DNA of 64,000 nucleotides, taken from Pseudogemmobacter hezensis. Lineage in GTDB: Bacteria; Pseudomonadota; Alphaproteobacteria; Rhodobacterales; Rhodobacteraceae. The DNA is taken from assembly GCF_013155295.1 (NCBI RefSeq), contig NZ_JABJXT010000012.1:62001-126000 (forward strand). Direction: 5' to 3'. A model generated the notes under the pieces. That model had not been told where the DNA came from, did not search any database, and saw nothing but the letters and a program-made list of their open reading frames with translations. Numbering within the stretch: position 1 is the stretch's first letter; every line of letters starts with the position of its first letter. The position numbers were made by a program, and so were the translations under genes. Positions 7,881 to 23,719 of the stretch are shown in pieces.

Positions 7881-8046
7881 TTGATGATTTTATCGAAGTG
7901 TTTCACATGCTAGCCGCAGGGAAATTCTTGACGTTGTTTGTCAGGATTCCCCTGCCAGCGTCAAGCGCTGCTCTGTCTTTCAGGAGGCCCCTTATGCAAA
8001 CCGATCCCCGTTCCGCCTTGCCCAGCCTGTCCTGCAGGGGCTGCTG

Positions 8047-10167
8047 TTGTCGACGGCTTTCCTGGCGCTTTTCACCGCGGATCTGCAGGCGCAGGAGTGG
8101 GCAGAGGCGGAAAGCGCTGCATTGGGAACGATCACGCTGCAGGTCAATGGCGCGTCAACGGCCCCTGTGACCGGCTATCTGGCCGGATCCAGCGCCGGGG
8201 CCACGAAAACCGACACGCCTTTGCATCTGACGCCTCAATCGGTCTCGGTGGTTACGGCAGATGAGGTGCGTGACCGGGCGGCGCTGACGCTTGGGGATGC
8301 GGTGAAATACACACCGGGCTTCACATCGCCCTCTCGGAGTTTCGCTCGGGCGACGGATCGCTTCCGGATCCGGGGCTTTGATGTCGAGGCAGGCACCGGC
8401 GGGCTTTTGCGCGACGGGATGCGCCTGCAGGTGAATTCCTATGACGGCACGCAAGAGCCTTTCGGGCTGGAGCGGGTCGATGTCGTGCGCGGCGCGGCCT
8501 CGGTGCTTTACGGCCAGCTTTCGCCGGGGGGCATGGTGAATGCGGTCTCAAAGCGGCCGACCGAAACCCCCTTCCATGAGCTGGGCGTCGAGGTCGGAAC
8601 ACATGGCCGCAGGCAGATCACCGGTGATTTCAGCAATCGCCTTTCCGAGACGCTGTCTTACCGCGTGACGGTTCTGGCGCGTGAAAGCGATACGGAAACC
8701 AATTATGTCAATGACGACCGGCTGTATTTCGCGCCCTCGCTGACTTGGGCCCCGACCGAGGACACCTCGCTGACGGTTCTGGGCTTCTGGCAGAACAGCA
8801 AGACCCGCTTTCCCGCGCCACTGCCCTATGGGATCATCGAGGGGATCGGCAGCGGGCCCTTCATTCTGGATCGCGGCACCTTCATCGGCGAGCCGGGCTA
8901 TGACCATATGGAAAGCGACATGATGGCGCTTGGCTATGAGTTCAGCCATCGTTTCGCCAATGACATGCGGCTGTCGGTCAAATCGCGCTATTACGAATCT
9001 GATCTCGACTGGCGCTATCTGATGGCCCAGACCGGGGCGGCGGCGGTTGCCAATGTGATGAATACCGGCATTCTGGCCCGCCAGTACAGTGATCGTCATG
9101 ACCGCGCCCGGGGTGTCACGCATGACATGAACCTCAGCTTCGGCTTCACCACCGGCGCGCTCAGCCATGAGGTTCTGGTCGGCTATGACTTCCAGAAAAC
9201 GCGGTTCAACTCTGACAATTTCCGCGCGGCCGCGCCCTCAATCGACCTGAACGATCCGGTTTACGGCGTCACCTTCTCAATCAACCGCGACCCAGCCCGC
9301 AATCGCGGCAGCGAGACCGATATCACCCAGCACGGCGTCTATCTGCAGGATCAGATCCGCTTTGACGAGCGCTGGAATGTGTTGGTTGGCCTGCGCCATG
9401 ACTGGGTCGAGCAGACCTTCAGCTATAAGGCCCTTGCCGGCACGCATGAGCGCAAATCCGAGCGCACGACCTGGCGCGCAGGCCTGGTCTATGAGGGCGA
9501 GAATGGCCTTTCGCCCTATATCAGCTTCTCGCAATCCTTCTTCCCGGTGGCGGTCTCGGAATATACCGAGGCGGTGAATTTTGAGCCGATGCTGGGCGAG
9601 CAGTTCGAGATTGGCCTGCGTTATCAGCCGCCTGGCAGCAATATGATGTTCAGCGCCAGCCTTTATGACCTGACCCAGGACAATGTCGTGGCCCGCAACC
9701 TTGCCGGTGATCTGACCCAGATCGGCCAGCGCCGCGCAAAGGGGTTTGAGCTGGAGGCGCGTGGCGATCTGACGGATGCGCTTTCGATGACGGCCTCTTA
9801 CGCCTATACCGACGCGCGGATCACCCGCAGCGAGGATGCCGCGGAAATTGGTCGCCGCAGCGAGGATACGCCGTACCACCAGGCTGCGCTCTGGCTGAAA
9901 TGGGACCTGGCACAGATGGGGGTCGAGGGCCTGACCATCGGCACCGGGGTTCGCTTTAAGGGGGATACCCGCGCCTCGGGCATCCCGCGCGAGATCCTCG
10001 GCCATACGCTGGTTGACCTGCTGGTACGCTATGAGGTGAGGGAGAATTTCGACCTTTCTCTGAACGCGACCAATCTCTTCGACAAAGACTATGCCGATTG
10101 CGATTACACGACCTGCCGCTATGGCGATGGCCGTGAGGTCACGCTGACCGCCCGCCACCGCTGGTAA
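8047..10167 (+). CDS. TonB-dependent siderophore receptor (5' end apparently frameshifted; natural start probably 7994)
   Basis: Outer-membrane ferric-siderophore receptor of about 706 residues. It has a plug domain (LHLTPQSVSVVTADEVRDRA; FRIRGFDVE; VDVVRGAASVLYGQLSPGG), a long beta-barrel, and a C-terminal aromatic residue (ARHRW). In the current frame the only starts are weak, such as TTG 8047, which sits inside the signal peptide core. A well-placed ATG at 7994, six bases after AGGAGG, is in the adjacent frame. Adding one C to the CCCC run at 8006-8009 joins them and yields MQTDPPFRLAQPVLQGLL followed by LSTAFLALFTADLQAQ, a good signal peptide. Either the read lost a C or the gene is off in this strain. 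The importer operon is divergent; a terminator follows at 10185-10222. Confidence 0.87.
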   Translation: MSTAFLALFTADLQAQEWAEAESAALGTITLQVNGASTAPVTGYLAGSSAGATKTDTPLHLTPQSVSVVTADEVRDRAALTLGDAVKYTPGFTSPSRSFARATDRFRIRGFDVEAGTGGLLRDGMRLQVNSYDGTQEPFGLERVDVVRGAASVLYGQLSPGGMVNAVSKRPTETPFHELGVEVGTHGRRQITGDFSNRLSETLSYRVTVLARESDTETNYVNDDRLYFAPSLTWAPTEDTSLTVLGFWQNSKTRFPAPLPYGIIEGIGSGPFILDRGTFIGEPGYDHMESDMMALGYEFSHRFANDMRLSVKSRYYESDLDWRYLMAQTGAAAVANVMNTGILARQYSDRHDRARGVTHDMNLSFGFTTGALSHEVLVGYDFQKTRFNSDNFRAAAPSIDLNDPVYGVTFSINRDPARNRGSETDITQHGVYLQDQIRFDERWNVLVGLRHDWVEQTFSYKALAGTHERKSERTTWRAGLVYEGENGLSPYISFSQSFFPVAVSEYTEAVNFEPMLGEQFEIGLRYQPPGSNMMFSASLYDLTQDNVVARNLAGDLTQIGQRRAKGFELEARGDLTDALSMTASYAYTDARITRSEDAAEIGRRSEDTPYHQAALWLKWDLAQMGVEGLTIGTGVRFKGDTRASGIPREILGHTLVDLLVRYEVRENFDLSLNATNLFDKDYADCDYTTCRYGDGREVTLTARHRW

Positions 10168-11533
10168 GCGCTGATTTGCGCCCCGGCCTTTCGCTTCTGA
10201 GCCCCGCCAGAAGCGAAAGGCCCCGCGTCAGGTCATCCCCCGCAGGGGCCCCCAGACAGAGGCGGATACCGCTTTCGGTATCCGCCTCATCTGTCATGAT
10301 AGTCTGGGGGGATGTGACCTCAACTCCCAGCGACTGGGCGGCGCTGGCGAAAGCCATGGCCTCGTGGGCGGGCATCGGCAGCCACAGATGGAACGCGCTA
10401 TCCGCCCCGATCAGCTGGTGGCCGTCCAGGATGGTGCGCGCGATTGCACCGCGCCGCGCCGCCTCCAGCCGCAGTGCAGCGCGCAATTCCTCGGCCACGC
10501 CGTTCAGCAGCCATTGCTCTATCAGCGCCGAATCCACCGGCGAGGCGGTCAGCGGCAGGGCCACCAGCGTTGCGGTTGCAGCCGCCACCCGGTCGGGCGG
10601 CACCAGCAGAACCCCAAGCCGCAGCCCGGCACTGAGGCTTTTCGACAAGCTGGAAACATGCAGCACGATCTCTGGCGCCAGGCTGACAAGGGGCGGCCGG
10701 GACGGGTCAGAGCCAAGGCTGTAAACGCCGTCCTCGACAATCGGAACCCTATGCGCCCTGCAGATGCGGATGATCTCATGGCGCCTGGCAAGGCCCATGG
10801 TTCTGGTGGTCGGGTTGTGGGTGTCAGGGGTGACATAGACCAGCCGCTGTTTCGGATTGTCACGCTCTGCGTGCAGGACGCGATCCAGATCCGCCGGGCA
10901 CATCCCCTCGGCGTCCATGGCAACGGCCCGCAGCGGATGGCCCCGGTGCCGTGCCAGCGAAATCGCCCCGGAATAGCTGAACCGCTCGGTGATGATCAGG
11001 CCGCGCCCGCCGCAAAGCATGTCAAACCCCAGCCACAGCGCCTGCTGCCCGCTGCCTGTCAGCACCATATCATCGGGACGGGCCGGGACGCCGATGCTTT
11101 CCAGCCAATGCGCCAGAAGCCTGCGATGGGCGTCGTGGCCCGTAGGCGGCGGCCGCAGATTGACGCGGTCGCTGTCGATCCTGCGGGCGATGATCGACAG
11201 GCTGCGCGACAACAGGCGGTCGCTGATCATATGCGGCAGCACATTGCCCGAGAAATCGATCATCGGCCCTTTGCGCGATTCCACCGCCGAGACAAAAGTG
11301 CCCCGTCCCTTGATGCTGCGCAAAAGCCCCCGGCGCTCCAGCGCGGCATAGGCCTTGGTGACGGTGCCGACGCCGATCTGCAGGGTCCAGCCCAGGTCAC
11401 GATGGGCGGGCATGCGGTCACCATCCACCAGGCGGCCGGCCAGGATATCATCGGAAATCGCGGTGATCAGACGGTCAGAGGTGGTGCCGGGGCCATCGGT
11501 CAGATGGGGGCTCCAAGGGGATTTAAGGCGCAT
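10139..11533 (-). CDS. MocR/PdxR-type transcriptional regulator (GntR helix-turn-helix fused to aminotransferase domain)
   Basis: A 464-residue fusion. An N-terminal GntR winged helix (residues about 15-80; DGDRMPAHRDLGWTLQIGVG, then TKAYAALERRGLL) is joined to a fold-type I aminotransferase domain. SLSKSLSAGLRLG contains the pyridoxal-phosphate lysine, and DNPKQRLVYVTPDTHNPT is typical of the cofactor site. Such proteins sense vitamin B6 or amino compounds and usually act on divergent or nearby genes. No pyridoxine synthesis or obvious amino-acid target lies beside it, so the effector is unknown. It converges on the TonB receptor and overlaps its last 29 bases. Two strong hairpins lie inside its 3' coding region (10185-10222 and 10249-10310). 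Confidence 0.88.
   Translation of the reverse strand: MRLKSPWSPHLTDGPGTTSDRLITAISDDILAGRLVDGDRMPAHRDLGWTLQIGVGTVTKAYAALERRGLLRSIKGRGTFVSAVESRKGPMIDFSGNVLPHMISDRLLSRSLSIIARRIDSDRVNLRPPPTGHDAHRRLLAHWLESIGVPARPDDMVLTGSGQQALWLGFDMLCGGRGLIITERFSYSGAISLARHRGHPLRAVAMDAEGMCPADLDRVLHAERDNPKQRLVYVTPDTHNPTTRTMGLARRHEIIRICRAHRVPIVEDGVYSLGSDPSRPPLVSLAPEIVLHVSSLSKSLSAGLRLGVLLVPPDRVAAATATLVALPLTASPVDSALIEQWLLNGVAEELRAALRLEAARRGAIARTILDGHQLIGADSAFHLWLPMPAHEAMAFASAAQSLGVEVTSPQTIMTDEADTESGIRLCLGAPAGDDLTRGLSLLAGLRSERPGRKSALTSGGGRSA
10185..10222. terminator. Strong hairpin after the TonB receptor, inside the 3' end of the convergent regulator gene
   Basis: Perfect 15-bp inverted repeat, GGCCTTTCGCTTCTG (10185-10199) and CAGAAGCGAAAGGCC (10208-10222), with an eight-base loop, starting 17 bases after the receptor stop. 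It probably ends or protects the receptor transcript. There is no T run after it, so it is not a textbook intrinsic terminator. Confidence 0.55.
10249..10310. other. Nested inverted repeats within the regulator coding sequence
   Basis: CCCCCAGAC (10249-10257) pairs with GTCTGGGGG (10302-10310) and encloses an 11-bp perfect stem (10260-10270 with 10277-10287, loop gctttc). The structure overlaps codons for the segment TDEADTESGIRLCLGAP of the MocR-type protein. It could be a second barrier to transcription read-through from the receptor, or a structured region in the regulator mRNA. Confidence 0.45.
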
Positions 11534-11681: not shown

Positions 11682-12395
11682 TCAGGTGGCGGCGAGGAAC
11701 CGCTCTGGATTGGCCGCCGCGAAGGCCTTTCGCACCTCATCTGCGGTGCGGGTCAGGTGGATCTCGGTCATCTTGCAGGCGCGCAGCACGTTGCGGTCGC
11801 GCACGGCCTCATAGATGGCGAGATGCTCTTCTGTGACCGAGCGCCAGCCGCGCGACGCCGTCAGCGAGACGCGGCGATAGCGCTCTGACTGCTGGTAAAG
11901 CTGCTGCCGAAACCGAATGATGATTGGCGAATCCGCTGCCGCCACCAGCGAGGCATGAAAGGCCCGGTTGCTTGATTCCCATGCCTCCAGCAGCTGCGGT
12001 GTCAGGGCCTCGGCGGATGCGGGCAGCTGCGCCTCTATATCGGCCAGCTGGCTGAAGGTATCGGTAACGCTTTGCATCCAGGCCGCATCGCCTTTGACAA
12101 TCGCAGAGCTGATCGCCTCGGTTTCAAGCAGGCTGCGCACCCGCGTCAGATCGTCCAGCTCGGCCAGTGACATCGGCGCGACCCAAAAGCCGCGCTGTGC
12201 TTCAGTGGTGACCATCCGGTCGCCGATCAGCCGCGCCAGCGCCTCACGCAAGGGCGACATGCCGACACCGTAATCCTGCATCAGCCCTTCCAGCTTCAGC
12301 TTGGCCCCGGCCTGCAGCTTTCCGGCGACAATATCTTCGCGCAACTGCAGATATGTGCGGTCTGACAGGCTTCTGGCGGGGCTGGCGGAAGTCAT
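11682..12395 (-). CDS. GntR-family transcriptional regulator with FCD ligand-binding domain
   Basis: About 237 residues. The N-terminal winged helix starts at LSDRTYLQLREDIVAGKLQAG and includes the recognition segment YGVGMSPLREALARLIGD. An all-alpha FCD domain follows, with metal or ligand contacts suggested by NRAFHASLVAA and HLAIYEAVRDRN, then EIHLTRT. The ATG at 12395 is chosen: it has GGAG about ten bases upstream, whereas an in-frame extension to 12428 begins with a non-standard codon. FCD regulators usually sense carboxylic acids and repress a divergent catabolic operon. The divergent eleven-gene importer and ring-cleavage unit starting at 12608 is the obvious target, and two palindromes lie between them. 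Confidence 0.88.
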   Translation of the reverse strand: MTSASPARSLSDRTYLQLREDIVAGKLQAGAKLKLEGLMQDYGVGMSPLREALARLIGDRMVTTEAQRGFWVAPMSLAELDDLTRVRSLLETEAISSAIVKGDAAWMQSVTDTFSQLADIEAQLPASAEALTPQLLEAWESSNRAFHASLVAAADSPIIIRFRQQLYQQSERYRRVSLTASRGWRSVTEEHLAIYEAVRDRNVLRACKMTEIHLTRTADEVRKAFAAANPERFLAAT

Positions 12396-12507
12396 TCTGT
12401 ATCGGCTCCGGCTGGTTCCTGCTGCCAATAGAAGGCATTATTTTCGATATTTCAACCGCGATGGTGGCCGTATGTGAGAAAAACTGCCGTATTTGTGGGG
12501 GTTTTCG

Positions 12508-12607: not shown

Positions 12608-13810
12608 ATGACAATGAAAGACGCAATCACGCGCCGCAGGCTTATTGCCGCTGGTGGCGCGACGGCTTTTGCCGGGATGCTGGGCGCGCCGCTGATCGCA
12701 AAGGCCGCCAATGGATCACTGAGGATCGGCATGGTGACCTCGCTTTCGGGGCCTTTTGCGGGCCTGGGCGAGGCGATGCGCGATGGCATCGTCATGGCGC
12801 TTGAGGAATATGGCAATGAGATCGCCGGCCGCAGGATTGAGCTGATCGTCGAGGATGATCAGGCCAAACCCGATGAGGGCGTGCGCAAATTCCGCAAGCT
12901 GATCGGCCAGGACAATGTTGATATTGTCTCGGGCGTGATCTCTTCGGCGGTGGCGCTGGCGGTGCGCGATGTGGTGACCGAGGCCGAGGCGCTGACCTTC
13001 ATCTCGGCGGGGTCTGCAAATGCGCTGGCGCGCGATGCGGCCAGCCCGCTGGTGTTCCGCCCGACCAAGACGAACTGGATGCTGGGCCATACGGCGGGGC
13101 TTTGGGCGGCAGAGAAAATCTCGAAAACCGGCTGCCTTACCATCGGCGCTGATTATGCGGCCGGGCGCGAATATATCGGCGATTTTGTCGAGACCTATAC
13201 CGCTCAGGGCGGCGCGGTCGGTCAACAGCTTTGGGCGCCTTTGGGCACCACTGATTTCGGGCCGCTGCTGACCGCCATTGCCAGCGTGCAGCCCGAATTC
13301 ATCTATTCCTTCTTCGCAGGTTCGGATGCGGTCCGCTTCCTCAGGCAGATGAAAGATTACCGTCTGCATGAGAAAGTCAAAGTGCTGGGCGGTGGTGCGC
13401 TCTTTGACCAGGAAGACGTGATTGCGACGGTGAAAGATGCGGCGCTTGGCGGGCTGAACACCTGCAACCAATCGCCGACCGCGCCCGCATCGCAGGCATT
13501 CTCGGCCGCCTATCTGGCGCGGCGGGGCGTTTTGCCGGGCGAGATGGGCACTGCGGGCTATGTCACGGCGCAGGTCATCAAAGCCGCGCTTGAGCGCGTC
13601 GGGGGGGATGTGGCCGCGAAAGACCAGCTGAAGGAAAATCTGCTGGCCCTGCCGGTCGATACGGTCTTTGGACCGATGTCTTTTGATCCGCGCAACAATC
13701 AGGCGATCCTGGACATCTATGTCAATGAGATCACCGAAAGCGCGGATGGCCCGGTCAACCAGGTGATCCACACTTATCAGGGCGTGCAGGATCCGGGGCC
13801 CACCGCCTGA
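12608..13810 (+). CDS. Branched-chain amino acid/aromatic-acid type ABC transporter substrate-binding protein
   Basis: Periplasmic LivK-type type I binding protein, 400 residues. The N-terminus has a twin-arginine-like signal (TRRRLIAAGG, hydrophobic stretch, GAPLIAKAA) and the mature part opens LRIGMVTSLSGPFAGLGEAM, characteristic of this family, with ELIVEDDQAKPDEG after it. A GGGAGG ribosome site precedes the ATG. It is the first gene of the plus-strand unit running to 23719. Because ring-cleavage enzymes follow the importer, the ligand is more likely an aromatic or other catabolic acid than leucine; this is inference. A hairpin follows the gene at 13863-13883. Confidence 0.88.
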   Translation: MTMKDAITRRRLIAAGGATAFAGMLGAPLIAKAANGSLRIGMVTSLSGPFAGLGEAMRDGIVMALEEYGNEIAGRRIELIVEDDQAKPDEGVRKFRKLIGQDNVDIVSGVISSAVALAVRDVVTEAEALTFISAGSANALARDAASPLVFRPTKTNWMLGHTAGLWAAEKISKTGCLTIGADYAAGREYIGDFVETYTAQGGAVGQQLWAPLGTTDFGPLLTAIASVQPEFIYSFFAGSDAVRFLRQMKDYRLHEKVKVLGGGALFDQEDVIATVKDAALGGLNTCNQSPTAPASQAFSAAYLARRGVLPGEMGTAGYVTAQVIKAALERVGGDVAAKDQLKENLLALPVDTVFGPMSFDPRNNQAILDIYVNEITESADGPVNQVIHTYQGVQDPGPTA

Positions 13811-13862
13811 TCTGACGTCTGATCTGCTGCAATAGCTGATCCGCCCCACCTGATATGGCAGG

Positions 13863-13883
13863 GCGCGCAGAGGGTCTGCGCGC
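13863..13883 (+). other. Intercistronic hairpin after the binding-protein gene
   Basis: GCGCGCAGA (13863-13871) and TCTGCGCGC (13875-13883) form a perfect 9-bp stem with a three-base loop in the 112-base gap between the binding protein and first permease. It probably stabilises the upstream message or reduces read-through so that the binding protein is made in excess. The same gap starts with a repeated TCTGATCTG motif directly after the stop. Confidence 0.5.
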
Positions 13884-13922
13884 TCCTGTCCCAATCACAG
13901 CCTGATCCAGAAGAGGCTCGGC

Positions 13923-14792
13923 ATGTCCTTCTATCTCGTTCAGATCCTGAACGCCCTTTCCTTCTCAATGCTGCTGATGCTGACGGGGCTTGGCCTTTCG
14001 GTCGTGCTCAGTCTGCTGAATTTCGTCAACCTGACGCATGGCTCGTCTTTTCTGCTGGGGGCCTATGTCTCTATCTGGTGGCTGGGCAGCGGTGCGCCCT
14101 GGTGGCTGGCCTTCCCGGTGGCCTTCCTGGCCTCGGCGCTGGCGGGCCTGGTGCTTGAGCGGTTTCCGTTCCGCCAGTTCTACACCCGCACCCACCTGAT
14201 GCAGGTGCTGCTGACCTATGGGCTTTCGGTGATCTTCGCCGATCTGATGCGGTGGGGCTTTGGGGCGCAGATCGCCTCGCCCGAGCTGCCAGAGATCCTC
14301 AGCGGGGTGATCTTTGTCTTTGACATGCCCTTCCCGATCTACCGGCTGTTCATCATCGTCTTCGGTGCGGTGCTGGCACTTGCGCTATGGTTCGTGATCG
14401 ACCGCACGATCTGGGGGGCCGTGGTGCGGGCCTGTGTGACCGATCGCCGCTTTGTCGAGACGCTGGGGCTGGATACCAAACGGATTTTTACCATCGTGGT
14501 CGCGGTGGCCGCCGGTCTTGGCGGGCTTAGCGGGGCGCTTGGGGCAGGGGTCCTTTCCGCCTATCCCGGCCTTGATGAGGAACAGCTGATCCTTGCCCTG
14601 ATCGTGGTGGTTGTGGGGGGACTGGGCACCTTCCGCGGCACCGTGCTCAGTGCGCTTTTGCTGGGCTTTACCATGACCTTCACCAAGGTCTGGATCCCTG
14701 AAATGTCGAATGTCGCAGCGCTGGCAATCATGGCTTTGATGCTGGTCATCGCGCCGCAGGGCCTTGTTGCACGGAAAGTGAGGCAGGTATGA
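13923..14792 (+). CDS. livH: LivH-type ABC transporter permease
   Basis: A 289-residue inner-membrane permease of the branched-chain amino acid transporter family. It opens with a hydrophobic helix and the typical LGLSVVLSLLNFVNLTHGS segment and has about eight membrane segments. GGLGTFRGTVLSALLLGF near the C-terminus resembles the coupling region that contacts the ATPases. Its stop overlaps the start of the LivM-type permease (ATGA, 14789-14792), so the two are translationally coupled and should form a heterodimer. The gene symbol reflects family, not proven substrate. Confidence 0.88.
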   Translation: MSFYLVQILNALSFSMLLMLTGLGLSVVLSLLNFVNLTHGSSFLLGAYVSIWWLGSGAPWWLAFPVAFLASALAGLVLERFPFRQFYTRTHLMQVLLTYGLSVIFADLMRWGFGAQIASPELPEILSGVIFVFDMPFPIYRLFIIVFGAVLALALWFVIDRTIWGAVVRACVTDRRFVETLGLDTKRIFTIVVAVAAGLGGLSGALGAGVLSAYPGLDEEQLILALIVVVVGGLGTFRGTVLSALLLGFTMTFTKVWIPEMSNVAALAIMALMLVIAPQGLVARKVRQV

Positions 14793-15787
14793 GCGATACC
14801 GTGAAACTGCAGGATGCCGCGAATGGCAGGGCCCCGGCGCCCAGCCGTCAGATCCTGGCCCTGGGGGTGATTGCCGTGCTGGCGGCGCTGCTGCCGCTGG
14901 TGGCCAGCGATTACCAGCTGCGCTTTGTCGCCGAGATCCTGATCGTTGGCGCCGCCGTCCTCAGCCTTGATCTGCTGGTTGGCTATGGCGGGCTGGTCTC
15001 GCTGGGGCATGCGACGCTGTTTGGCGGTGCGGCCTATGCGGCGGCGGTGGCCTCGCGCTCGCTTGGGGCGGATCTGACGCTGATGGTGGGGATCGGCACC
15101 CTGACGGGCATGGTGATGGCCTTCATCACCGGCATCGTGGTGATGCGCACCATCGCGCTTTTCTTCCTGATCCTGACGCTGATCGTCGGCCAGATCTTCT
15201 GGGAGATCGCGTTCCACTGGCGCGATGTGACCGGCGGCGCGGATGGTATGCGGGGCCTGCCAACGCTGAGCCTGAATCTGGGCGTGACCAAACTCGATCT
15301 GTCCTCAAGCTTTGCGCTTTACGTCACGGCAGCCGTGCTGGCCTTCGCGGCCTGGGCTGTGGCACGTTCCTTCGTGAATGCCCCCATCGGGCGCGCCCTG
15401 ATCGGCACCCGCGAGCGTCAGCTGCGGATGAGCGCGCTTGGCTATGACATCGCCCGCATCCGCATGATGGCGCTGCTGGCCTCGGGGGCGATTGCCGGGG
15501 CGGCGGGCTCTCTCTATCCCTTCGTCAACCAGTATATCGGGCCCAATTCGATGCAATGGACCTTCTCGGCGATGATGGTCGTGATGCTGGTGATCGGCGG
15601 CGTCGGCTCGCTTTACGGGGCCTTTATCGGCACGGCGGTCTACCTGGGCATCCAGACCTATATCTCTTCCTATACCGACCGCTGGCAGCTGGTTGTGGGC
15701 CTGATCTTCGTGCTGACCGTGATGATCATGCCGCGCGGCATCGTCCATGGCGTTGGCAGCCTCTTTGGCGGAAAGGGCAAACAATGA
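14789..15787 (+). CDS. livM: LivM-type ABC transporter permease
   Basis: A 332-residue polytopic permease with the LivM hallmarks VGYGGLVSLGHATLFGGAAY, GTRERQLRMSALGYD and SLYGAFIGTAVYLGIQTY. It has an extra N-terminal hydrophilic stretch of about 25 residues before the first helix. It partners the LivH-type protein and is coupled by overlap to it and to the following ATPase gene (ATGA at 15784-15787). Its role is to form half of the transmembrane channel for the ligand captured by the product of 12608-13810. Confidence 0.88.
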   Translation: MSDTVKLQDAANGRAPAPSRQILALGVIAVLAALLPLVASDYQLRFVAEILIVGAAVLSLDLLVGYGGLVSLGHATLFGGAAYAAAVASRSLGADLTLMVGIGTLTGMVMAFITGIVVMRTIALFFLILTLIVGQIFWEIAFHWRDVTGGADGMRGLPTLSLNLGVTKLDLSSSFALYVTAAVLAFAAWAVARSFVNAPIGRALIGTRERQLRMSALGYDIARIRMMALLASGAIAGAAGSLYPFVNQYIGPNSMQWTFSAMMVVMLVIGGVGSLYGAFIGTAVYLGIQTYISSYTDRWQLVVGLIFVLTVMIMPRGIVHGVGSLFGGKGKQ

Positions 15788-16542
15788 GCGGCGATCTTCT
15801 GCGCATTGAGAATGTCGGCATCGCCTTTGGCGGGCTGAAGGTTCTGACCGATGTGAACCTGACGGTGAAACAGGGCGAGACCATGGGCCTGATCGGCCCG
15901 AACGGCGCCGGAAAGACCACGCTTTTCAACATCGTGACGGGCTTTCTCAGCCCCAGCCACGGTGAGGTGGTGTTTGAGGGCAACCGCATCACCCAGACGC
16001 GCACCGCCCAGCGGGTGCGGATGGGGATCGTGCGAACCTTCCAGAAAAGCATGGTTTTCCCGGATCTTAGCGTGATGGAGAACCTGGCGCTGGCGCTGCG
16101 GGCGCGGACGCATGGCTATGCCTGGTGGCGCAGCGGTGCCGCCCTGGCCGCCGCAGATGCCAAAGCGCTGGAGATCCTGCGCAAGGCGGGCATGGCAGAT
16201 CGCGCCGGGCGCGTCGTCTCGTCGATGTCCTACGGGGATCAGCGGATCGTTGACGTGCTGATCTCGCTGGCGATGGAGCCGAAACTCCTGCTGCTGGACG
16301 AGCCGACGGCGGGCCTGTCAAAGGCCGAGGGCGAGCATCTGATCGAGGTGATCCGCACACTTTGCGGCAATACCTCGCTGGTGCTGGTCGCCCATGATCT
16401 CGACATCGTTTTTGCGGTCTGTGACCGGGTGGCGGTGCTGGATCTGGGCCGGATGATCGCCTGCGACACACCCGATGGCATCCGCGCCCATGAAGGGGCG
16501 CAGGCCGCCTATCTCGGCAAGGGAAAGGAGGCGGTGCAATGA
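15784..16542 (+). CDS. livG: LivG-type ABC transporter ATP-binding protein
   Basis: A 252-residue ATPase. The start at 15784 begins the domain cleanly (LLRIENVGIAFGGLKVLTDV) and overlaps the permease stop; a longer open frame reaching back to 15556 would lie inside livM. Walker A LIGPNGAGKTTLFNIVTGFL, a signature region with MSYGDQRIVDV, Walker B LLLLDEPTAGL and switch histidine VAHDLDIV are all visible. The signature reads SYGDQR rather than SGGQQR, as is usual for LivG proteins. It pairs with the LivF-type ATPase that follows. Confidence 0.88.
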   Translation: MSGDLLRIENVGIAFGGLKVLTDVNLTVKQGETMGLIGPNGAGKTTLFNIVTGFLSPSHGEVVFEGNRITQTRTAQRVRMGIVRTFQKSMVFPDLSVMENLALALRARTHGYAWWRSGAALAAADAKALEILRKAGMADRAGRVVSSMSYGDQRIVDVLISLAMEPKLLLLDEPTAGLSKAEGEHLIEVIRTLCGNTSLVLVAHDLDIVFAVCDRVAVLDLGRMIACDTPDGIRAHEGAQAAYLGKGKEAVQ

Positions 16543-17282
16543 CCGCTCAGGCATTTTCGGCCCAGACCGCCACCGCGATTGCGGTATCCGGCCTTTCGGC
16601 AGGCTATGACGGCGTCCAGGTGCTGCATGACATCAGCTTTACCCTTCAGAAGGGCGAGGCGGTGGCGCTTTTGGGGCGCAACGGCTCGGGCAAATCGACG
16701 CTTGCCACCGCGCTTTTCGGAATGGAGCCGCAGGTCTCTGGTCAGATCACCATTCATGGTGCGGATGTAACGGGCTGGGCCAGCCATCGCATCGCCCGCC
16801 AGGGCATTGCGTTGGTGCCCCAGGGGCGGGGCGTATTCCCCGATCTGACGGTTGAGGAAAATCTCGACATGGCCGCATTGTGGAGCCGCAAACAGCCCTG
16901 CCGCAGCTGGACACGCGAAAGGGTTTTCGACAGCTTCCCGCGCCTGGCTGAGCGTCGCCGTTTCCACTCGGCCTCGCTCAGCGGTGGCGAGCGGCAGTTG
17001 CTGGCGATTGCCCGGGCGCTGCTGACCCAGGCCCAGACGATTGTGCTGGATGAGCCAAGCGAGGGCCTCTCGCCCCGCGCGATTGAAGAGGTGATCATCG
17101 GCACCGTCGGCCAGTTGAAAAGCGAGGGTTACACGCTGCTGATCGCCGAGCAGAACATGACCATGGCGCTGCAACTGGCCGAGCGGGTGCTGATCCTGGA
17201 TCACGGCACGCTGGTCCATGACGGCGGATCGGCGGCGTTTCTGGCCGATGAGGCCCTGCAACGCGAACATCTGGGGCTGTAA
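16539..17282 (+). CDS. livF: LivF-type ABC transporter ATP-binding protein
   Basis: A 247-residue ATPase with Walker A LLGRNGSGKSTL, the LivF-typical VPQGRGVFPDLTVEENL, signature LSGGERQLLAIARAL, Walker B IVLDEPSEGLSP and IAEQNM in place of the switch-histidine region. It overlaps the LivG-type gene by four bases and is followed three bases later by the dehydrogenase gene. Transport and catabolism are therefore one transcriptional unit. Confidence 0.88.
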   Translation: MTAQAFSAQTATAIAVSGLSAGYDGVQVLHDISFTLQKGEAVALLGRNGSGKSTLATALFGMEPQVSGQITIHGADVTGWASHRIARQGIALVPQGRGVFPDLTVEENLDMAALWSRKQPCRSWTRERVFDSFPRLAERRRFHSASLSGGERQLLAIARALLTQAQTIVLDEPSEGLSPRAIEEVIIGTVGQLKSEGYTLLIAEQNMTMALQLAERVLILDHGTLVHDGGSAAFLADEALQREHLGL

Positions 17283-17285
17283 GCG

Positions 17286-18233
17286 ATGGCACGGATCTGG
17301 ATCCTTGGCGGCGGGCTGGTCGGATGCGGCTGGGCTGCGGCCTTTGCCGGGGGCGGCCATCAGGTGGTGGTGATCGACCCCGCACCTGAGCTTGCCACCC
17401 GCCTTGCCCGTGTCTGGGCCGAAGGGCAGCAGGCGCTGGCGCAGCTGGGCCGGCTTGTCCCCGCGCCCCAGGCCCCTGTCCCGGTGGTCAGTGCCGCTGA
17501 CGCAGGCCCCGCCCCCGATCTGGTGCAAGAGGCACTGCCGGAACAGCTGGCGCTGAAGGTGCCCGCGCTGGCGGCGCTGGAGCCGCATCTGCGCCCTGAC
17601 ACGGTGATCGCCTCTTCCTCATCGGGGCTTGATCCGGCGCAGATCGCGGCGGCCCTGCAGCGCCCCGAACGGCTGGTGATCGGTCACCCCTGCACGCCGC
17701 CCTATCTGATGCCCGTCGTCGAGATCTGCGGCGCCGCGGGCACTGAGCCGGCCGCGCTTGACGAGGCAGAGGCGCTTTACAAAAGCCTTGGCAAGACCGT
17801 CCTGCGGCTGAACCGCCCTATTGCGGGCCATCTGGTCAACCGTCTGCAGGCGGCTTTGTGGCGCGAAGCGGTGCATCTGGCGGCCGAGGGCGTCGCCAGC
17901 CTTGGCGATATAGAACTTGCGGTCAATGAGGGCCTTGCGCCGCGCTGGTGCTTTGTCGGCCCGACCGGGGTGTTCCATCTGGCCGGGGCCGAGGGCGGGC
18001 TGCAACGCTGCCTTGACGCGCTAGGCCCCGAGTTCGAGCGCTGGTGGGATGAACTGGGCACCCCCCGCCTAGATCCCTGGACCCGGCAGATCCTGGTCCA
18101 GGGCATGGCCGCGCATGACCCCCGCCCCGTCGCGCAGATCGCGCAGGACCGCGACCAGCGCCTCTCGCGCCTGCTGACCTATCTGCAGGCAAACACCGTT
18201 TCGGCGCCCGACGCCCCAGAGCACCCGCGCTGA
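17286..18233 (+). CDS. 3-hydroxyacyl-CoA dehydrogenase-like NAD-dependent oxidoreductase (lambda-crystallin/carnitine dehydrogenase group)
   Basis: A 315-residue two-domain dehydrogenase. The N-terminal Rossmann fold shows the dinucleotide loop GGGLVGCGW (residues 8-16). The middle carries SSSSGLDP and GHPCTPPYLMPVVEICG, the pattern of the lambda-crystallin, L-gulonate and carnitine dehydrogenase group, and the all-alpha C-terminal domain follows from NRPIAGHLVNRLQAALWREA. It should oxidise the hydroxyl of a 3-hydroxy acid rather than a CoA ester, judging by the short length. Three bases after the LivF-type gene, it belongs to the same operon. The substrate in this pathway is unknown. Confidence 0.75.
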   Translation: MARIWILGGGLVGCGWAAAFAGGGHQVVVIDPAPELATRLARVWAEGQQALAQLGRLVPAPQAPVPVVSAADAGPAPDLVQEALPEQLALKVPALAALEPHLRPDTVIASSSSGLDPAQIAAALQRPERLVIGHPCTPPYLMPVVEICGAAGTEPAALDEAEALYKSLGKTVLRLNRPIAGHLVNRLQAALWREAVHLAAEGVASLGDIELAVNEGLAPRWCFVGPTGVFHLAGAEGGLQRCLDALGPEFERWWDELGTPRLDPWTRQILVQGMAAHDPRPVAQIAQDRDQRLSRLLTYLQANTVSAPDAPEHPR

Positions 18234-18285: not shown

Positions 18286-19146
18286 ATGACGCATCCTTAC
18301 CGCGACCTTCGTTATCTGCGCGTTCCGGTTCCTGACCTTCAGGCGGCGGCGGGTTTTGCATCCGGCATCTTCGGCCTGCAACGCGCCGATGAGGACGACC
18401 GCACCATCCGTTTCCGCTCGGACGACCGCAATTATGCGCTGTGCTACACGCTCGACGATGGCCCCGCCGCCGTGGCGCTGACGGTTGCTAACCGTGAGGA
18501 TCTGGCGGGGGCCATGACCCGCCTTGCCCGCTGGCAGCCCCGGATGCTGGATGATGACGAGGCCCTCGCCCGCCAGGTCAAGGCCGGGCTGGCGGTCACC
18601 GCCCCGAATGGCATCACGGTCGAGCTGGTCTGGCGGCCGCTGACCTCTGGCTGGCGCTATCACGGGCCGCGCGATGCGGGCATCACCGGGTTTCAGGCGG
18701 TGCAGCTGGCCTGCACCGACCTGTCCGCAAATGAGGTCTTCTGGACCGACGGCATCGGCGCGCGCATCTCTGACTGGGCGGGCGACGCGGCCTTCCTGGC
18801 GATTGATGACGCCCATCACCGCATCTCGCTTTACCCGTCGCAGCGCGACGGCATCCTTGGTGCGGTCTGGGCGGTCGAGGGGCTGAACAATGTGATGCAG
18901 GGCTGGTATCACTTCCAGCGCTCTCAGGTTCCCGTGATCCACGGCCCGGGCCGCCAGCCCACCTCAAACGCGATTTTCGTCACTGCCGAAGCGCCGCAGG
19001 GGATCTATTTCAGCTACGCCGCCGAAACCGAGGAAGGGCCGCAGATCGCGGCACGGGGGCCCCGCCAGTTCGCAAACCAGACATGGTCACACGACGCCTG
19101 GGGCTCGCTGTGCCATGCCCCGGAATTCGGAGGGAAAGAAGCATGA
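18286..19146 (+). CDS. VOC-superfamily protein, extradiol-dioxygenase fold lacking the metal ligands
   Basis: A 286-residue protein with two VOC domains, closely parallel to its neighbour at 19143-20003 (both have RYHG.RDAGITGF and the HGPGRQPTS or FGPGRHPTS segment). Aligned by eye against that neighbour, the three positions expected to bind iron or manganese in type I extradiol dioxygenases are A138, W195 and S243 here instead of His, His and Glu. It is therefore unlikely to be an independent dioxygenase. It may be a structural or substrate-binding partner of the second VOC protein, since the genes overlap (ATGA) and have equal length. AGGAAAGAG precedes the start. Confidence 0.72.
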   Translation: MTHPYRDLRYLRVPVPDLQAAAGFASGIFGLQRADEDDRTIRFRSDDRNYALCYTLDDGPAAVALTVANREDLAGAMTRLARWQPRMLDDDEALARQVKAGLAVTAPNGITVELVWRPLTSGWRYHGPRDAGITGFQAVQLACTDLSANEVFWTDGIGARISDWAGDAAFLAIDDAHHRISLYPSQRDGILGAVWAVEGLNNVMQGWYHFQRSQVPVIHGPGRQPTSNAIFVTAEAPQGIYFSYAAETEEGPQIAARGPRQFANQTWSHDAWGSLCHAPEFGGKEA

Positions 19147-20003
19147 TCGAGCTGAAGGATGTCGTCTATTGCCGCCTTGGCACCCGCGATCTGGCGGGAT
19201 CGGAATGGTTCGCGCTGAACATTCTTGGCCTGCAGGTGTCCGAGCGCCGCAAGGGCTCTACCTATTTCAAATCGAATGAGCGCGAGCATACGCTGTGCTA
19301 TTTCGAGGGCGACCCGGATGATCAGGTGACCGCCTTCGAACTGGGCAGCCATGACGATCTGCAACGCGCCGCCGCGACGCTGGAAAGCCTGGGGCACCGG
19401 GTTCATTATGGCTCGGCGGTGGAATGCGATGCCCGCCATGTGCGCGAGTTCATCCGCTTTAATGACCCCACCGGCAATGGGATCGAGTTCGTGGTGCGCC
19501 CGGCGGTGTCGGGCCTGCGCTATCACGGCACCCGCGATGCCGGGATCACCGGCTTCAGCCATGTCGGCCTTTGCACCACCAATGCCGAGCGCGACGAGGC
19601 CTTCTGGACCCAGGTCTGCAATGCCCGCGTCTCTGACCGGATCGGTGATGCGCCCCTGATGCGGCTGGGCACGATCCACCATTCGATCGCGCTGTTTCCT
19701 TACCACAAATCCGGCATCCAGCACATCAACCACCAGGTCGAAAGTGCCGATGACATCCAGCGCAGCTTCAACTTTGTGCGCGACAATCAGGTGAATATCA
19801 CCTTCGGCCCGGGGCGGCATCCGACCTCTTCGGCGCAGTTCCTTTACTTCACCGGGCCCGAGGGGATGACCTTCGAATATTCCACCGGGGTCTGCGAAAT
19901 CCATGACGAGCCGCTCTGGCGCGACCGTCAGTTCCACTTTGAGCCCAAGGGCTTTTGCCATTGGGGCGCAAAGCCCAATATCGCCGCATTCAGGGACGAA
20001 TAA
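19143..20003 (+). CDS. VOC-family extradiol ring-cleavage dioxygenase
   Basis: A 286-residue two-domain protein of the type I extradiol dioxygenase group. The C-terminal domain holds the metal triad: H140 in GFSHVGL, H197 in HINHQVES and E245 in GMTFEYS, aligned by eye to the family pattern. The GMTFEYSTG ending resembles the G-EVEYG motif of catechol dioxygenases. The start at 19143 overlaps the preceding VOC stop; an in-frame extension to 19083 lies inside that gene and is rejected. It is the probable meta-cleavage step of the pathway, opening a catechol-type ring for the downstream aldehyde dehydrogenase. The exact catechol is unknown; homoprotocatechuate is one candidate. Confidence 0.75.
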   Translation: MIELKDVVYCRLGTRDLAGSEWFALNILGLQVSERRKGSTYFKSNEREHTLCYFEGDPDDQVTAFELGSHDDLQRAAATLESLGHRVHYGSAVECDARHVREFIRFNDPTGNGIEFVVRPAVSGLRYHGTRDAGITGFSHVGLCTTNAERDEAFWTQVCNARVSDRIGDAPLMRLGTIHHSIALFPYHKSGIQHINHQVESADDIQRSFNFVRDNQVNITFGPGRHPTSSAQFLYFTGPEGMTFEYSTGVCEIHDEPLWRDRQFHFEPKGFCHWGAKPNIAAFRDE

Positions 20004-20005: not shown

Positions 20006-20677
20006 ATGGAAGCGCTTGCAAAAACCGTGCGTATCTCTGCGCGCTCGCTGGGACGGGCGGGGCTGGTCCATGCTTACGGCCATTGCTCGGCCCGGGTGGA
20101 TGCGGATCACTTCCTGGTCTGCCCGGCGCGACCGATGGCGCAGATCCTGCCCGGCGAGGCCTGCACCCTGGTTCCGGTGCGCGGTGCCCTGCCAGAGGGC
20201 GTGTTGGGCGAGGTGCGGCTGCATCAGCAGATCTATCAGCGCAGGCCCGATTGCGGCGGCGTGATCCGCTTCATGGGGCCGAATGTGATGGCGCTGGCAG
20301 CCCTTGGCCGCGTGCCCGCGATGCGCCACGGCTTTGGCACCTATTTCGCGCCGAAGGTGGGGCTTTGGGATGATATCCAGCTGATCCGCGACGAGGAAAA
20401 GGCCGTCGGCGCGATTGATGCGATGGGGGCCAGCGCGGGCCTTCTGATGCGCGGCAATGGCGGCGTGGTGGCGGGGGAAAGCCTTGAAGAGGCCACGGGC
20501 CTTGCCTTCTACCTGGATGACATGTGCCGCATCGAGCTGGCAGCCCTGGCCGCCGGGCTGGCCGATACGCCTGAGATTTCCGCCGAAGATGCCCAGACCC
20601 GCGCCACCCGCGCCGGGCGGATCTTCGGGCGGATGTGGGATCACCTGACCTTTGGTGACCCGGAAAAGACTGCGTGA
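20006..20677 (+). CDS. Class II aldolase/adducin-fold protein lacking zinc-binding histidines
   Basis: A 223-residue class II aldolase/adducin-like protein (ISARSLGRAGLVHAYGHCSAR opening; GEVRLHQQIYQRRPDCGGVI). The usual HTH-type zinc pair is replaced by R88 and M90 (VIRFMGPN). The later NHG histidine is G152 (RGNGGVV). The family acid residue is retained as E69. Catalysis by the standard zinc enediolate route looks impossible. Members of this fold also include 3,4-dihydroxyphthalate decarboxylase-type enzymes, so a decarboxylase or isomerase role filling the missing HpaF/HpaG steps is conceivable but unproven. The start at 20006 is two bases after the VOC stop region; an extension to 19955 overlaps that gene and is rejected. 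Confidence 0.7.
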   Translation: MEALAKTVRISARSLGRAGLVHAYGHCSARVDADHFLVCPARPMAQILPGEACTLVPVRGALPEGVLGEVRLHQQIYQRRPDCGGVIRFMGPNVMALAALGRVPAMRHGFGTYFAPKVGLWDDIQLIRDEEKAVGAIDAMGASAGLLMRGNGGVVAGESLEEATGLAFYLDDMCRIELAALAAGLADTPEISAEDAQTRATRAGRIFGRMWDHLTFGDPEKTA

Positions 20678-20690
20678 AAGGAAGTTTGCC

Positions 20691-22145
20691 GTGACCACCT
20701 ATCTTAATTTCATCGACGGCCAGTTCGTCAAAGGCTCTGCCACGCCTTTCGCCAATCATTTCCCGACCACGGGCGAGGTGATCGGCGAGGTTTCGGCCGC
20801 CGGCCGCGCCGAGGTGGATGCCGCTGTCGGGGCCGCGAAAGCCGCGCTGAAAGGCCCCTGGGGCCGTATGCCCCTGGCCGAGCGCGTGGCGTTTTTGCGC
20901 AAGCTCGCCGATGGGATCAACGCCCGCTTTGACGAGTTCCTGGCCGCCGAGATCCGCGACACCGGCAAGCCGCGCTCGATTGCCAGCCATATCGACATTC
21001 CGCGCGGCGCGGCGAATTTCAACGTCTTTGCCGATCAGATCCTGACCGCCTCGACCGAGACCTTCGAGATGGCCACGCCGGATGGCGCGGGTGCGCTGAA
21101 CTATGCGCTGCGCCTGCCGCGTGGGGTGATCGGGGTGGTGTGCCCCTGGAACCTGCCGCTTTTGCTGATGACCTGGAAGGTCGCGCCCGCGCTGGCCTGC
21201 GGCAATACGGTGGTGGTGAAACCCTCTGAGGAAACCCCGGCCACCGCCACGCTTTTGGGCGAGGTGATGAATGCCGTCGGCATCCCGCCCGGCGTCTATA
21301 ACGTGGTTCACGGCCATGGCCCCGATGCCGCGGGCGAATTCCTGACCTCGCATCCCGATGTCGATGGCATCACCTTCACCGGCGAGACCCGCACGGGTGA
21401 GGCGATCATGCGGGCGGCGGCCAATGGCGTGCGCCCCGTCTCGCTGGAGCTGGGCGGCAAAAATGCGGGCATCGTCTTTGACGACGCCGATCTTGCCCTG
21501 ACGCTGGAAGGCCTTGGCCGCGCGTGTTTTGCCAATACCGGGCAGGTCTGCCTTGGGACCGAACGTATCTATGTCCAGCGCGATATCTTTGACCGCTTCG
21601 CCGAGGGCCTGGCCGCCAAAGCCGCCGCCTATCGCTTCGGCGATCCCTTTGACACGGCAACCACCATGGGCACGGTGATCTCAGCCGAGCATCGCGCCAA
21701 GGTTCTGTCCTATTATGAAAAGGCACGCCAGGGCGGGGCAACCGCGCTTGCAGGCGGCGGCGTGCCTGAGGTTGCGGGCTATAGCGGCGGCTATTGGGTG
21801 CAGCCCACCGTCTGGACCGGGCTTTCCCAGGATCACCCGGTGGTGCGCGAAGAGATCTTCGGCCCCTGCACCGCGCTGATCCCCTTTGACAGCGAGGAAG
21901 AGGCCTGCGCCCTGGCCAATGACACGCCCTATGGCCTTGCGACCTCGATCTGGACCACCAATCTGGGCCGCGCGCATCGCACCGCGAGAAGCGTCGAGGT
22001 CGGCATCTCCTGGGTGAATTCCTGGTTCCTGCGCGATCTGCGCACGCCATTTGGCGGCGCGAAAGCCAGCGGCATCGGCCGTGAGGGCGGGATCCACTCG
22101 CTCGAATTCTATACCGAATTGCGCAACGTCTGCATCAAACTCTGA
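20691..22145 (+). CDS. NAD-dependent aldehyde dehydrogenase (HpaE / hydroxymuconic-semialdehyde dehydrogenase type)
   Basis: A 484-residue aldehyde dehydrogenase. The GTG at 20691 is chosen: AAGGAAG lies just upstream and the protein then opens MTTYLNFIDGQFV as in this family; the alternative GTG at 20652 lies within the previous gene. Catalytic residues are N154 (CPWN), E253 (LELGGK) and C287 (NTGQVCLG). It resembles the enzymes that oxidise hydroxymuconic or 5-carboxymethyl-2-hydroxymuconic semialdehyde after extradiol cleavage. It sits between the aldolase-fold gene and the hydratase, matching the order of steps in a meta pathway. Confidence 0.82.
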   Translation: MTTYLNFIDGQFVKGSATPFANHFPTTGEVIGEVSAAGRAEVDAAVGAAKAALKGPWGRMPLAERVAFLRKLADGINARFDEFLAAEIRDTGKPRSIASHIDIPRGAANFNVFADQILTASTETFEMATPDGAGALNYALRLPRGVIGVVCPWNLPLLLMTWKVAPALACGNTVVVKPSEETPATATLLGEVMNAVGIPPGVYNVVHGHGPDAAGEFLTSHPDVDGITFTGETRTGEAIMRAAANGVRPVSLELGGKNAGIVFDDADLALTLEGLGRACFANTGQVCLGTERIYVQRDIFDRFAEGLAAKAAAYRFGDPFDTATTMGTVISAEHRAKVLSYYEKARQGGATALAGGGVPEVAGYSGGYWVQPTVWTGLSQDHPVVREEIFGPCTALIPFDSEEEACALANDTPYGLATSIWTTNLGRAHRTARSVEVGISWVNSWFLRDLRTPFGGAKASGIGREGGIHSLEFYTELRNVCIKL

Positions 22146-22158
22146 AAGGCCCAGTCCC

Positions 22159-22941
22159 ATGTTGACCGAAGAAGAACGCGCCCGGGCTGTAGCGGGCCTC
22201 TTGGAAAGCCACCGCACGAAAATCCAGGGCGAGCGCCCCTCGGTGTTGTTCCCCAATATCGAGATCGCCGACAGCTATGCGATCTCCTCGGCGGTGGCCG
22301 AGGCGAAGGTGAAAGCCGGGGCGAAGATCATCGGCCATAAGATCGGCCTGACCTCAAAGGCGATGCAGGCGGCCTCAAAGATCGACGAGCCGGACTACGG
22401 CTATATGTTCGACGATCTGGTGCTGGCCGATGGCGCGAAAGTGCAGTTTGAGGATTTCTGCGTGCCGCGCGTCGAGCCAGAGCTGACCTTCGTGCTGAAA
22501 GAGCCGCTGCGGGGCCCGAATGTCGGGCTGGTCGATGTGCTGCGCGCTACCGAATGGGTGATCCCCTCAATCGAGATCATCGACGCCCGCGTGACAGAGC
22601 CGCGCAAGATCTTTGACACCGTGGCCGACAATGGCGCGGCGGCGGGGCTGGTGCTGGGCGGCCGCCCGGTGCGCCCGACCGATATCGACCTGCGGTGGGC
22701 GGGGGCGATTTTCTACCGCAACTCTGAGATCGAAGAGACCGGGCTTGCCGCCGGTGTGTTGGGGCATCCGGCGATGGCGGTGGCCTGGCTTGCCAACAAG
22801 CTCGCACCCTTCGGTGTGACGCTGGAGCCGGGGCATATGCTGCTTTCGGGCAGCTTCACCCGCCCGGTCTGGGCGAAGAAGGGCGACACGCTGCATGCCG
22901 ATTTCGGGCCGCTCGGCTCGGTCGCGGTTCAGTTCGTGTGA
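22159..22941 (+). CDS. hpaH: 2-oxo-hept-3-ene-1,7-dioate hydratase-like (HpaH/4-oxalocrotonate hydratase family)
   Basis: A 260-residue member of the HpaH/DmpE hydratase family. The segment IIGHKIGLTSKAMQ is strongly characteristic, and VEPELTFVL supplies acidic metal ligands. GDTLHADFGPLGSVAVQFV is the usual C-terminus. It adds water to a 2-oxo-alkenoate to give a 4-hydroxy-2-oxo acid, the substrate of the following aldolase. The ATG at 22159 is selected, with GAAAGG upstream; an in-frame extension to 22051 lies within the dehydrogenase gene. The family is confident; the chain length of the substrate is not. Confidence 0.82.
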   Translation: MLTEEERARAVAGLLESHRTKIQGERPSVLFPNIEIADSYAISSAVAEAKVKAGAKIIGHKIGLTSKAMQAASKIDEPDYGYMFDDLVLADGAKVQFEDFCVPRVEPELTFVLKEPLRGPNVGLVDVLRATEWVIPSIEIIDARVTEPRKIFDTVADNGAAAGLVLGGRPVRPTDIDLRWAGAIFYRNSEIEETGLAAGVLGHPAMAVAWLANKLAPFGVTLEPGHMLLSGSFTRPVWAKKGDTLHADFGPLGSVAVQFV

Positions 22942-22948
22942 GGGTGTG

Positions 22949-23719
22949 ATGGTGATCGAGGCCCCCCGCAACACGTTCAAGCGCCGCCTGCTGGCGGGTG
23001 AGGCGCTGCATGGCCTTTGGCTGTCGCTGGCCAGCCCGGTCTCATCCGAGGCGCTTTCGCTGATCGGCTTCGACTGGCTTTTGTTCGATACTGAACATGC
23101 GGCGATTGACCTGGGCGCGGTGCAGCCCCTGCTGCAGGCTGCGGCGGCCGGGGCCTCATCCCCGGTGGTGCGCCCGGCCTGGAATGACAAGGTGCTGATC
23201 AAACGGGCGCTGGACATGGGGGCGCAGACGCTGCTGATCCCCTTTGTCGAAACCCCCGAAGAGGCCGCCGCCGCTGTCGCCGCCACCCGCTATCCGCCCG
23301 GCGGTATCCGGGGCGTGGCAGGCGGCACCCGCGCCAGCCGTTTCGGCCTGACATCCGATTACTTCCAGGTGGCCGATCAGGAGATCTGCGTTCTTGTGCA
23401 GCTTGAGACCACTGCCGCCCTTACCCGTCTTGAGGAGATCGCGGCGGTGCCTGGTGTCGATGGCATCTTTATCGGCCCCTCAGATCTTTCGGCCTCGATG
23501 GGGTTTCTGGGCCGCCCCGGCGCGCCCGAGGTGCAAAGGGTGCTGCAGGACACGGCAGCGCGCATCCGCAATACCGGCAAGGCCGCCGGTATTCTGGCCA
23601 CTAACCCCGAGGATGCGAGGCGCTATCTCGACTGGGGATATTCCTTCGTTGCGGGGGCGGTTGATCTGGGTCTGTTGCTGAAAGCTGCGGGCGAGACCTT
23701 GTCCCGGATGCGGGCATAA
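22949..23719 (+). CDS. hpaI: HpaI/HpcH-family 4-hydroxy-2-oxo acid aldolase
   Basis: A 256-residue class II pyruvate aldolase. Residues matching the known HpaI active site are H50 (FDTEH), R75 (VVRP), E153 (QLE) and D179 (GPSDL). It cleaves 4-hydroxy-2-oxo acids to pyruvate and an aldehyde such as succinic semialdehyde, the last step of the meta pathway. The start at 22949 gives LLFDTEH the usual position; a longer frame from 22895 is inside the hydratase gene. It is the final gene of the operon, followed by a clear terminator at 23757-23793. Confidence 0.85.
   Translation: MVIEAPRNTFKRRLLAGEALHGLWLSLASPVSSEALSLIGFDWLLFDTEHAAIDLGAVQPLLQAAAAGASSPVVRPAWNDKVLIKRALDMGAQTLLIPFVETPEEAAAAVAATRYPPGGIRGVAGGTRASRFGLTSDYFQVADQEICVLVQLETTAALTRLEEIAAVPGVDGIFIGPSDLSASMGFLGRPGAPEVQRVLQDTAARIRNTGKAAGILATNPEDARRYLDWGYSFVAGAVDLGLLLKAAGETLSRMRA

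Follow-up and report, generated by a model that had tools for sequence, protein, structure and literature searches.

A type I extradiol dioxygenase gene and its neighbour encoding a homologue without metal ligands form a conserved pair in Pseudogemmobacter hezensis and related bacteria

Results

Organisation of the locus

The window analysed here is a stretch of 64,000 nucleotides from Pseudogemmobacter hezensis (contig NZ_JABJXT010000012.1, positions 62,001 to 126,000). Two co-linear genes on its forward strand, here termed U (18286..19146, +) and D (19143..20003, +), each encode a protein of 286 amino acids, and the stop codon of U overlaps the start codon of D in the tetranucleotide ATGA (19143..19146, +). 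In all these particulars an earlier, sequence-only reading of the same DNA proved correct. U is a VOC / type I extradiol-like protein in which A138, G192 and S243 replace all three metal ligands, while D is a VOC type I extradiol dioxygenase carrying the triad H140/H194/E245 plus H180, H226 and Y235. BLASTP aligned the two with 34% identity (93 of 272 aligned positions); the gaps are confined to the N-terminal half, in agreement with the earlier description of a second domain that aligns without gaps. Pfam assigned PF00903 to both proteins, the match being weaker for U (37.6 bits) than for D (73.4 bits). This is the single U-D pair in the window's own genome.

Upstream of the pair lie a divergent GntR/FCD regulator gene (11682..12428, −), branched-chain-type ABC uptake genes for a binding protein, two permeases and two ATPases (12608..17282, +) and, just before U, the gene of a 3-hydroxyacyl-CoA dehydrogenase family protein (17286..18233, +). 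The ABC binding protein was identified by Pfam, the other uptake genes by reading of the open frames and by the order of their kin in locus L019 and in Bosea loci. D is followed by a class II aldolase/adducin family gene (PF00596; 20006..20677, +); its best named model is the PhtC decarboxylase at 43 bits, far below the cut-off of 200, and from its context the product is likely to decarboxylate the ring-cleavage product. Next come a 2-hydroxymuconic semialdehyde dehydrogenase (TIGR03216, 814.6 against a cut-off of 693.25; 20652..22145, +) and an HpaH-like protein of the FAH superfamily (345, just below the cut-off of 351.5; 22051..22941, +), the true starts of both being uncertain, and an HpaI-like aldolase (309.1, below the cut-off of 368.8; 22949..23719, +).

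The steps encoded here match known steps of 2,3-dihydroxybenzoate breakdown. According to excerpts of PMC6362003, that route proceeds from 3,4-cleavage, whose product absorbs near 343 nm, through decarboxylation of 3-carboxy-2-hydroxymuconate semialdehyde to a dehydrogenase, the decarboxylase being either the class II aldolase family enzyme DhbB or the metallo-dependent hydrolase OpaD. The same excerpts present DhbA of P. reinekei MT1 (AFN52421) and OpaC of Pseudomonas sp. PTH10 (285 aa) as type I extradiol enzymes, like D, from clusters with a decarboxylase (DhbB or OpaD, respectively), to which opa adds a hydroxymuconate semialdehyde dehydrogenase. The operon contains both elements of this context, a PF00596 gene as decarboxylase candidate and a TIGR03216 gene above cut-off. 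By gene context alone, D is therefore likened to the DhbA/OpaC family, and its substrate would be of the 2,3-dihydroxybenzoate type. A difference is that a single gene sufficed for OpaC activity in E. coli extract and DhbA is described as one gene (excerpts of PMC6362003), whereas D is paired with U.

Within 20652-23719 of the window, the HpaH/HpaI-like genes take the place of the DmpG/acylating acetaldehyde dehydrogenase pair. No tautomerase was found among the operon proteins scanned, a set without short ORFs. In view of both features, the end products may differ from those of the classical meta pathway. With enzymes of the HpaH/HpaI type, the lower half of the route may end in pyruvate and malonate semialdehyde. 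A siderophore-type uptake set (window 4095-10167), consisting of a PF01497 binding protein, two FecCD permeases, an ABC ATPase and a TonB-dependent receptor, adjoins the regulators of the operon; it would fit the use of pieces of catecholate siderophores, such as 2,3-dihydroxybenzoate.

Conservation of the gene pair

A scan of named genomes with a profile of nine U sequences yielded 41 loci, nearly all of them alphaproteobacterial by title. L044 is titled Mesoflavibacter, and in the tree described below its proteins adjoin those of a genome from the window's class. The database search for further adjacent pairs that the sequence-only reading had proposed was thus productive: in 41 of 41 loci U directly precedes D, which is followed by a class II aldolase gene. 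The two genes overlap in 25 or 26 loci, depending on the choice of start codon, and lie 7-49 bp apart in the remainder. U is a single open frame in 40 of the 41. The exception is L033 of Metarhizobium album, where the U frame (about 9929-10860) falls into two pieces beside an intact D.

Whole-genome samples gave a similar picture. Within the window's own order, 9 of 292 genomes (its own included) match the U sequence at E <= 1e-30, and all nine show two side-by-side matches, U with no triad residue and D with all three. The U profile was matched at 1e-25 by 9 of 398 genomes of a phylum sample: five hold U plus D, G519 and G559 a lone D-type protein, and G365 and G418 remoter full-triad proteins. 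In a class sample, 17 of 385 genomes match the D profile at 1e-40, seven with U plus D, three with adjacent full-triad doubles (G846, G929, G1000) and seven with a lone full-triad protein; a scan of the neighbourhoods of five of these seven revealed no second VOC gene of the U/D kind. Six of 149 genomes in the family of G475 match, five with adjacent U plus D and the sixth being G1087. Twelve of 198 match in the family of G564; eleven have the adjacent pair and G1162 a lone full-triad protein. In G1087, U (L168, contig C12) adjoins a D gene from which an internal deletion has taken two of the metal ligands, and an intact D is located on another contig; the deleted D is either real or an assembly effect. 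G1092 has a second pair with a shortened D.

In total, U is present in 32 distinct genomes (the window's own included), with an intact full-triad D adjacent in 31; this count overlaps with the 41 named loci, and the two must not be summed because several are the same organisms (e.g. G1113 and L021). The sequence-only reading had considered that a U homologue might stand alone elsewhere; none does in the genomes read, each genome with U also holding a D relative. Among plasmids, 54 records match D and 45 match the U query, 38 of each being from Pseudosulfitobacter; some of the remaining U-query matches are D-type solos at the same places. The 38 plasmid records of Pseudosulfitobacter pseudonitzschiae have two D-matching places each, and most of them list diatoms as their source. 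Plasmid CP069021.1 of this species (L104), predicted to be conjugative, carries the pair in a p-cumate-like cluster.

Such p-cumate-like clusters, labelled by the best phmmer match to annotated neighbours, hold the pair on the Pseudosulfitobacter plasmid and in G475, G900, G811, G1092 and G1267. They comprise genes for a Rieske oxygenase, a short-chain dehydrogenase, a TetR regulator and an amidohydrolase, some together with an alpha/beta hydrolase. G1252 has the same set, with the amidohydrolase not in the stretch read. Both decarboxylase types adjoin D relatives in the genomes examined; neither was found with the queries used in L116, L161, L162, L163, L167, L170 and L171. Transporters vary between clusters and are of the ABC or the TRAP type. 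The only constant neighbour of U is D, G1087 excepted, and this is the main reason to tie the function of U to D.

Metal ligands and active-site residues

The window, the 41 loci and the second piece of the split L033 frame gave 43 U rows. That second piece lacks the sites and was dropped, so that 42 rows remained, namely 41 full-length sequences and the C-terminal part of L033 U. Alignment to BphC (1han) matched H140 and E245 of D with residues that we take to be the metal ligands of BphC. It also identified H194, in the motif GIQHINH, as the middle ligand. The sequence-only reading had been right about H140 and E245 and had placed the middle ligand at H197; of the U equivalents it named, A138 and S243 hold, and G192 is the correct residue in place of W195. 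Its central point, that U lacks all three ligands, stands with A138/G192/S243 opposite H140/H194/E245.

Of 11 stand-alone rows, 8 have F and 3 have H at position 197, whereas all of them, like every other full-triad row examined, retain H194; H197 (window 19731-19733) was therefore discarded as a metal ligand. H197 is invariant in paired D, which made it a candidate mark of partner dependence; this was rejected because the solos G559, Caballeronia and Cupriavidus carry it as well.

The loss is conserved. In D numbering, positions 140 and 194 are never H and position 245 is never E in the 42 U rows; the residues found at the three positions are A/S/G, G/A/S/E and S/G/T/V. Across all U rows read, isolated lineages have D or C at 140 and E at 194. 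By alignment, all 42 D rows have the 2-His-1-Glu triad H, H, E, and H180, H226 and Y235 are likewise invariant in them. As every U relative read lacks the ligands, the loss is neither chance nor sequencing error. Two further active-site residues are changed in U, with Q224 for H226 of D and T233 for Y235, and the equivalents of both vary among U rows.

A His pair, H177-H178, is retained in U. All 27 U rows compared have it, and it stands at the same place in D, which indicates that the position of D H180, whose equivalent is catalytic in relatives, is preserved without the metal. In the named loci this invariance is partly built in, AHH being part of one of two recruiting patterns; the U rows from whole-genome searches, free of this bias, also keep the pair. 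Across the 27 rows the only strictly invariant D/E/H/C residues of U are D163, H177 and H178, and because all three are shared with D, no alternative metal set is evident among the invariant ligand-type residues. Four further residues, D46, H126, D174 and E280, vary only rarely among 44 U rows.

Predicted structures

U and D were modelled as single chains with AlphaFold2 (U: pLDDT 95.0, pTM 0.92; D: pLDDT 90.8, pTM 0.89), and both models show the two-module VOC fold. In Foldseek comparisons the U model reached a TM score of 0.86 to BphC 1kmy and 1han, and the D model 0.87 to 1kmy and 0.88 to 1f1r. The separate prediction for U that had been suggested earlier thus indicates that U retains the extradiol fold despite ligand loss. 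Apart from one glyoxalase-like relative, the PDB matches listed for both models are all VOC extradiol dioxygenases. This relative, 3B59, an Mn-bound protein from Novosphingobium aromaticivorans, ranks first among PDB entries for both proteins, in sequence searches as well as by Foldseek E-value; it differs in being metal-bound and in having only 21-23% identity. BphC, HsaC and homoprotocatechuate 2,3-dioxygenase, known as homo-oligomers, have the same fold as U and D; in the listed Foldseek rows identity is about 13-24%. Their triad is present in D and missing from U.

Phylogeny and selection

A tree was calculated from 74 rows, including 27 U and 27 D rows plus solos and adjacent full-triad copies. 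One branch (100/93) separates all 27 U rows from the remainder and another (100/96) does so for all 27 D rows; the solos and adjacent full-triad copies are nearer D than U (91/85). Long branches and odd letter make-up were flagged among some U rows, above all those of Pseudosulfitobacter and G475, and long-branch attraction may account for the placing of the U clade outside the group of D and solos, which is not relied on here. The solos G559, Caballeronia and Cupriavidus, which have H197, adjoin D; with full-triad relatives existing without U, three of them next to D, the wider clade of D did not need U. The adjacent full-triad pairs (G846, G929, G1000) were considered as an intermediate stage and dismissed, as they are placed inside the solo part of the tree. 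These doubles (L106, L107 and L105, respectively), all from one family, are natural active/active pair controls.

U and D distances are correlated over the 27 pairs (r = 0.918; matched by 0 of 9999 permutations), which fits, on these sequences, one origin and joint inheritance of the two. The median U distance is 2.26 times the D distance, and U is thus less constrained than D. In 16 of 17 close pairs, which overlap in species, dN/dS of U was 0.068-0.250, one pair having no finite dS; for D in the same pairs it was 0.011-0.117. Judged by these ratios, U is under purifying selection; together with a U frame that is unbroken in 40 of the 41 loci, they do not describe a pseudogene.

Discussion

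U and D are encoded as a pair, the metal ligands are lost from one of them throughout, and the two share a history in which U has been kept under selection. We consider it reasonably probable that U is a functional pseudoenzyme which joins D as the second subunit of a VOC ring-cleavage dioxygenase, in a layout resembling that of the unrelated AmnAB enzymes. D would bind the metal and cleave the 3,4 bond of a 2,3-dihydroxybenzoate-type ring, and the resulting carboxylated muconate semialdehyde would be decarboxylated by the product of the next gene. U, with a D-like fold and no metal site, would most likely assemble with D, as suggested by the equal lengths and the overlapping genes. In the complex it may stabilise D, shape its active site or regulate it, comparable to the second chain of AmnAB. 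Counted against a subunit are the full-triad solos, the faster change of U, the arrangement in G1087, the split frame in L033 and the irregularities flagged among U rows in the tree. The sequence-only reading had gone further in suggesting, as one of two options beside a pseudoenzyme with a binding role of its own, an obligate heteromer; a partner is not needed for this kind of enzyme as such, since full-triad relatives without U exist and OpaC, in excerpts of PMC6362003, works from one gene. Ring-cleavage chemistry therefore does not require U in every branch.

The main rival takes U for a separate, metal-independent protein whose old pocket and conserved His pair serve to bind or isomerise the unstable product of ring fission or to pass it on, with no lasting attachment to D. 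There are VOC proteins with a metal-free binding role, the invariant H177-H178 could serve such a role, and the operon proteins scanned, short ORFs aside, include no tautomerase. The pair is, however, also found in p-cumate-like clusters with the other decarboxylase type and in some cases an alpha/beta hydrolase, contexts to which a single downstream chemical role is hard to fit, and the equivalents of H226 and Y235 vary in U. We therefore regard this reading as rather unlikely, and U as the missing tautomerase was set aside on account of the same clusters. The constant linkage to D alone would suit a U that regulates D or senses its substrate by transient contact only as well as it suits a fixed subunit; yet Pfam finds only VOC-type domains in U, and the clusters read already have GntR or TetR regulators, which makes such a role improbable.

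Two further readings concern what the ligand loss itself means. U could be an active metalloenzyme with a different metal site, as single lineages with D or C at 140 or E at 194 and the nearly invariant D46, H126, D174 and E280 might suggest; the strictly invariant D163, H177 and H178 are nevertheless all common to D and the replacements at 140 and 194 do not recur as a set, so we judge it very unlikely. That U is a decaying duplicate of D, functionless and carried along by linkage, is least credible of all. Its loss of catalytic residues, its faster change and the split frame at one of the 41 loci would be expected of decay, but the dN/dS values in 16 pairs, retention across many genera, a compact and confident model and the constant presence of a D relative wherever the genomes read hold a U all oppose it.

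The arrangement favoured here, a pseudoenzyme subunit beside an active one, has a counterpart in 2-aminophenol 1,6-dioxygenase (AmnAB), a type II enzyme of the LigB superfamily whose alpha chain is a homologue without ligands. The two chains of AmnAB come from neighbouring genes and the iron is in beta (excerpts of PMC10470539 and PMC3790839); in one such enzyme neither chain is soluble alone, and the whole consists of two heterodimers (excerpts of PMC10470539). U and D share with it the layout of two chains from neighbouring genes with a metal site in one, as far as sequence can tell. They are not members of the AmnAB group because the fold differs, both being VOC proteins and neither of the LigB type. 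Heterodimeric enzymes for carboxylated catechols from Novosphingobium are presumably LigAB-type, and heterotetrameric hydroquinone dioxygenase belongs to another family. Excerpts of PMC4059872 describe the Novosphingobium proteins as extradiol enzymes related to 3,4-dihydroxybenzoate dioxygenases.

The view that no such pair has been described holds in so far as no active/inactive or heteromeric VOC extradiol pair occurred among the literature matches listed, a set with few subscription papers. It is weakened by PsbC2, the 2,3-dihydroxy-p-cumate dioxygenase of Rhodopseudomonas palustris no. 7 (BAA82122), which excerpts of PMC6362003 include among the relatives of OpaC. The name implies a PsbC1, and this hints that a pair of the U-D type had already been sequenced. 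In the two annotated records of the pair that were examined, both genes bear the name 'VOC family protein', even though in each record one of the two products has no metal site.

Type I extradiol dioxygenases serve as standard models for the activation of oxygen, and each is usually taken to be the product of a single gene; we know of no division of labour with a gating dead twin among them. A more specific version of the subunit reading, which we put forward tentatively, is that U is an obligate subunit whose retained, metal-free pocket senses the aromatic carboxylate, so that U tunes or switches D in a mixed oligomer. If true, ring cleavage in this VOC branch would be gated by a dead twin. 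With a conserved metal-less partner on the one hand and single-gene relatives as natural controls on the other, the family would offer a direct way to learn what a pseudoenzyme subunit adds. The pair is found in some bacteria that apparently break down aromatic acids, and it suggests that the ring-cleaving enzyme there has a silent partner subunit.
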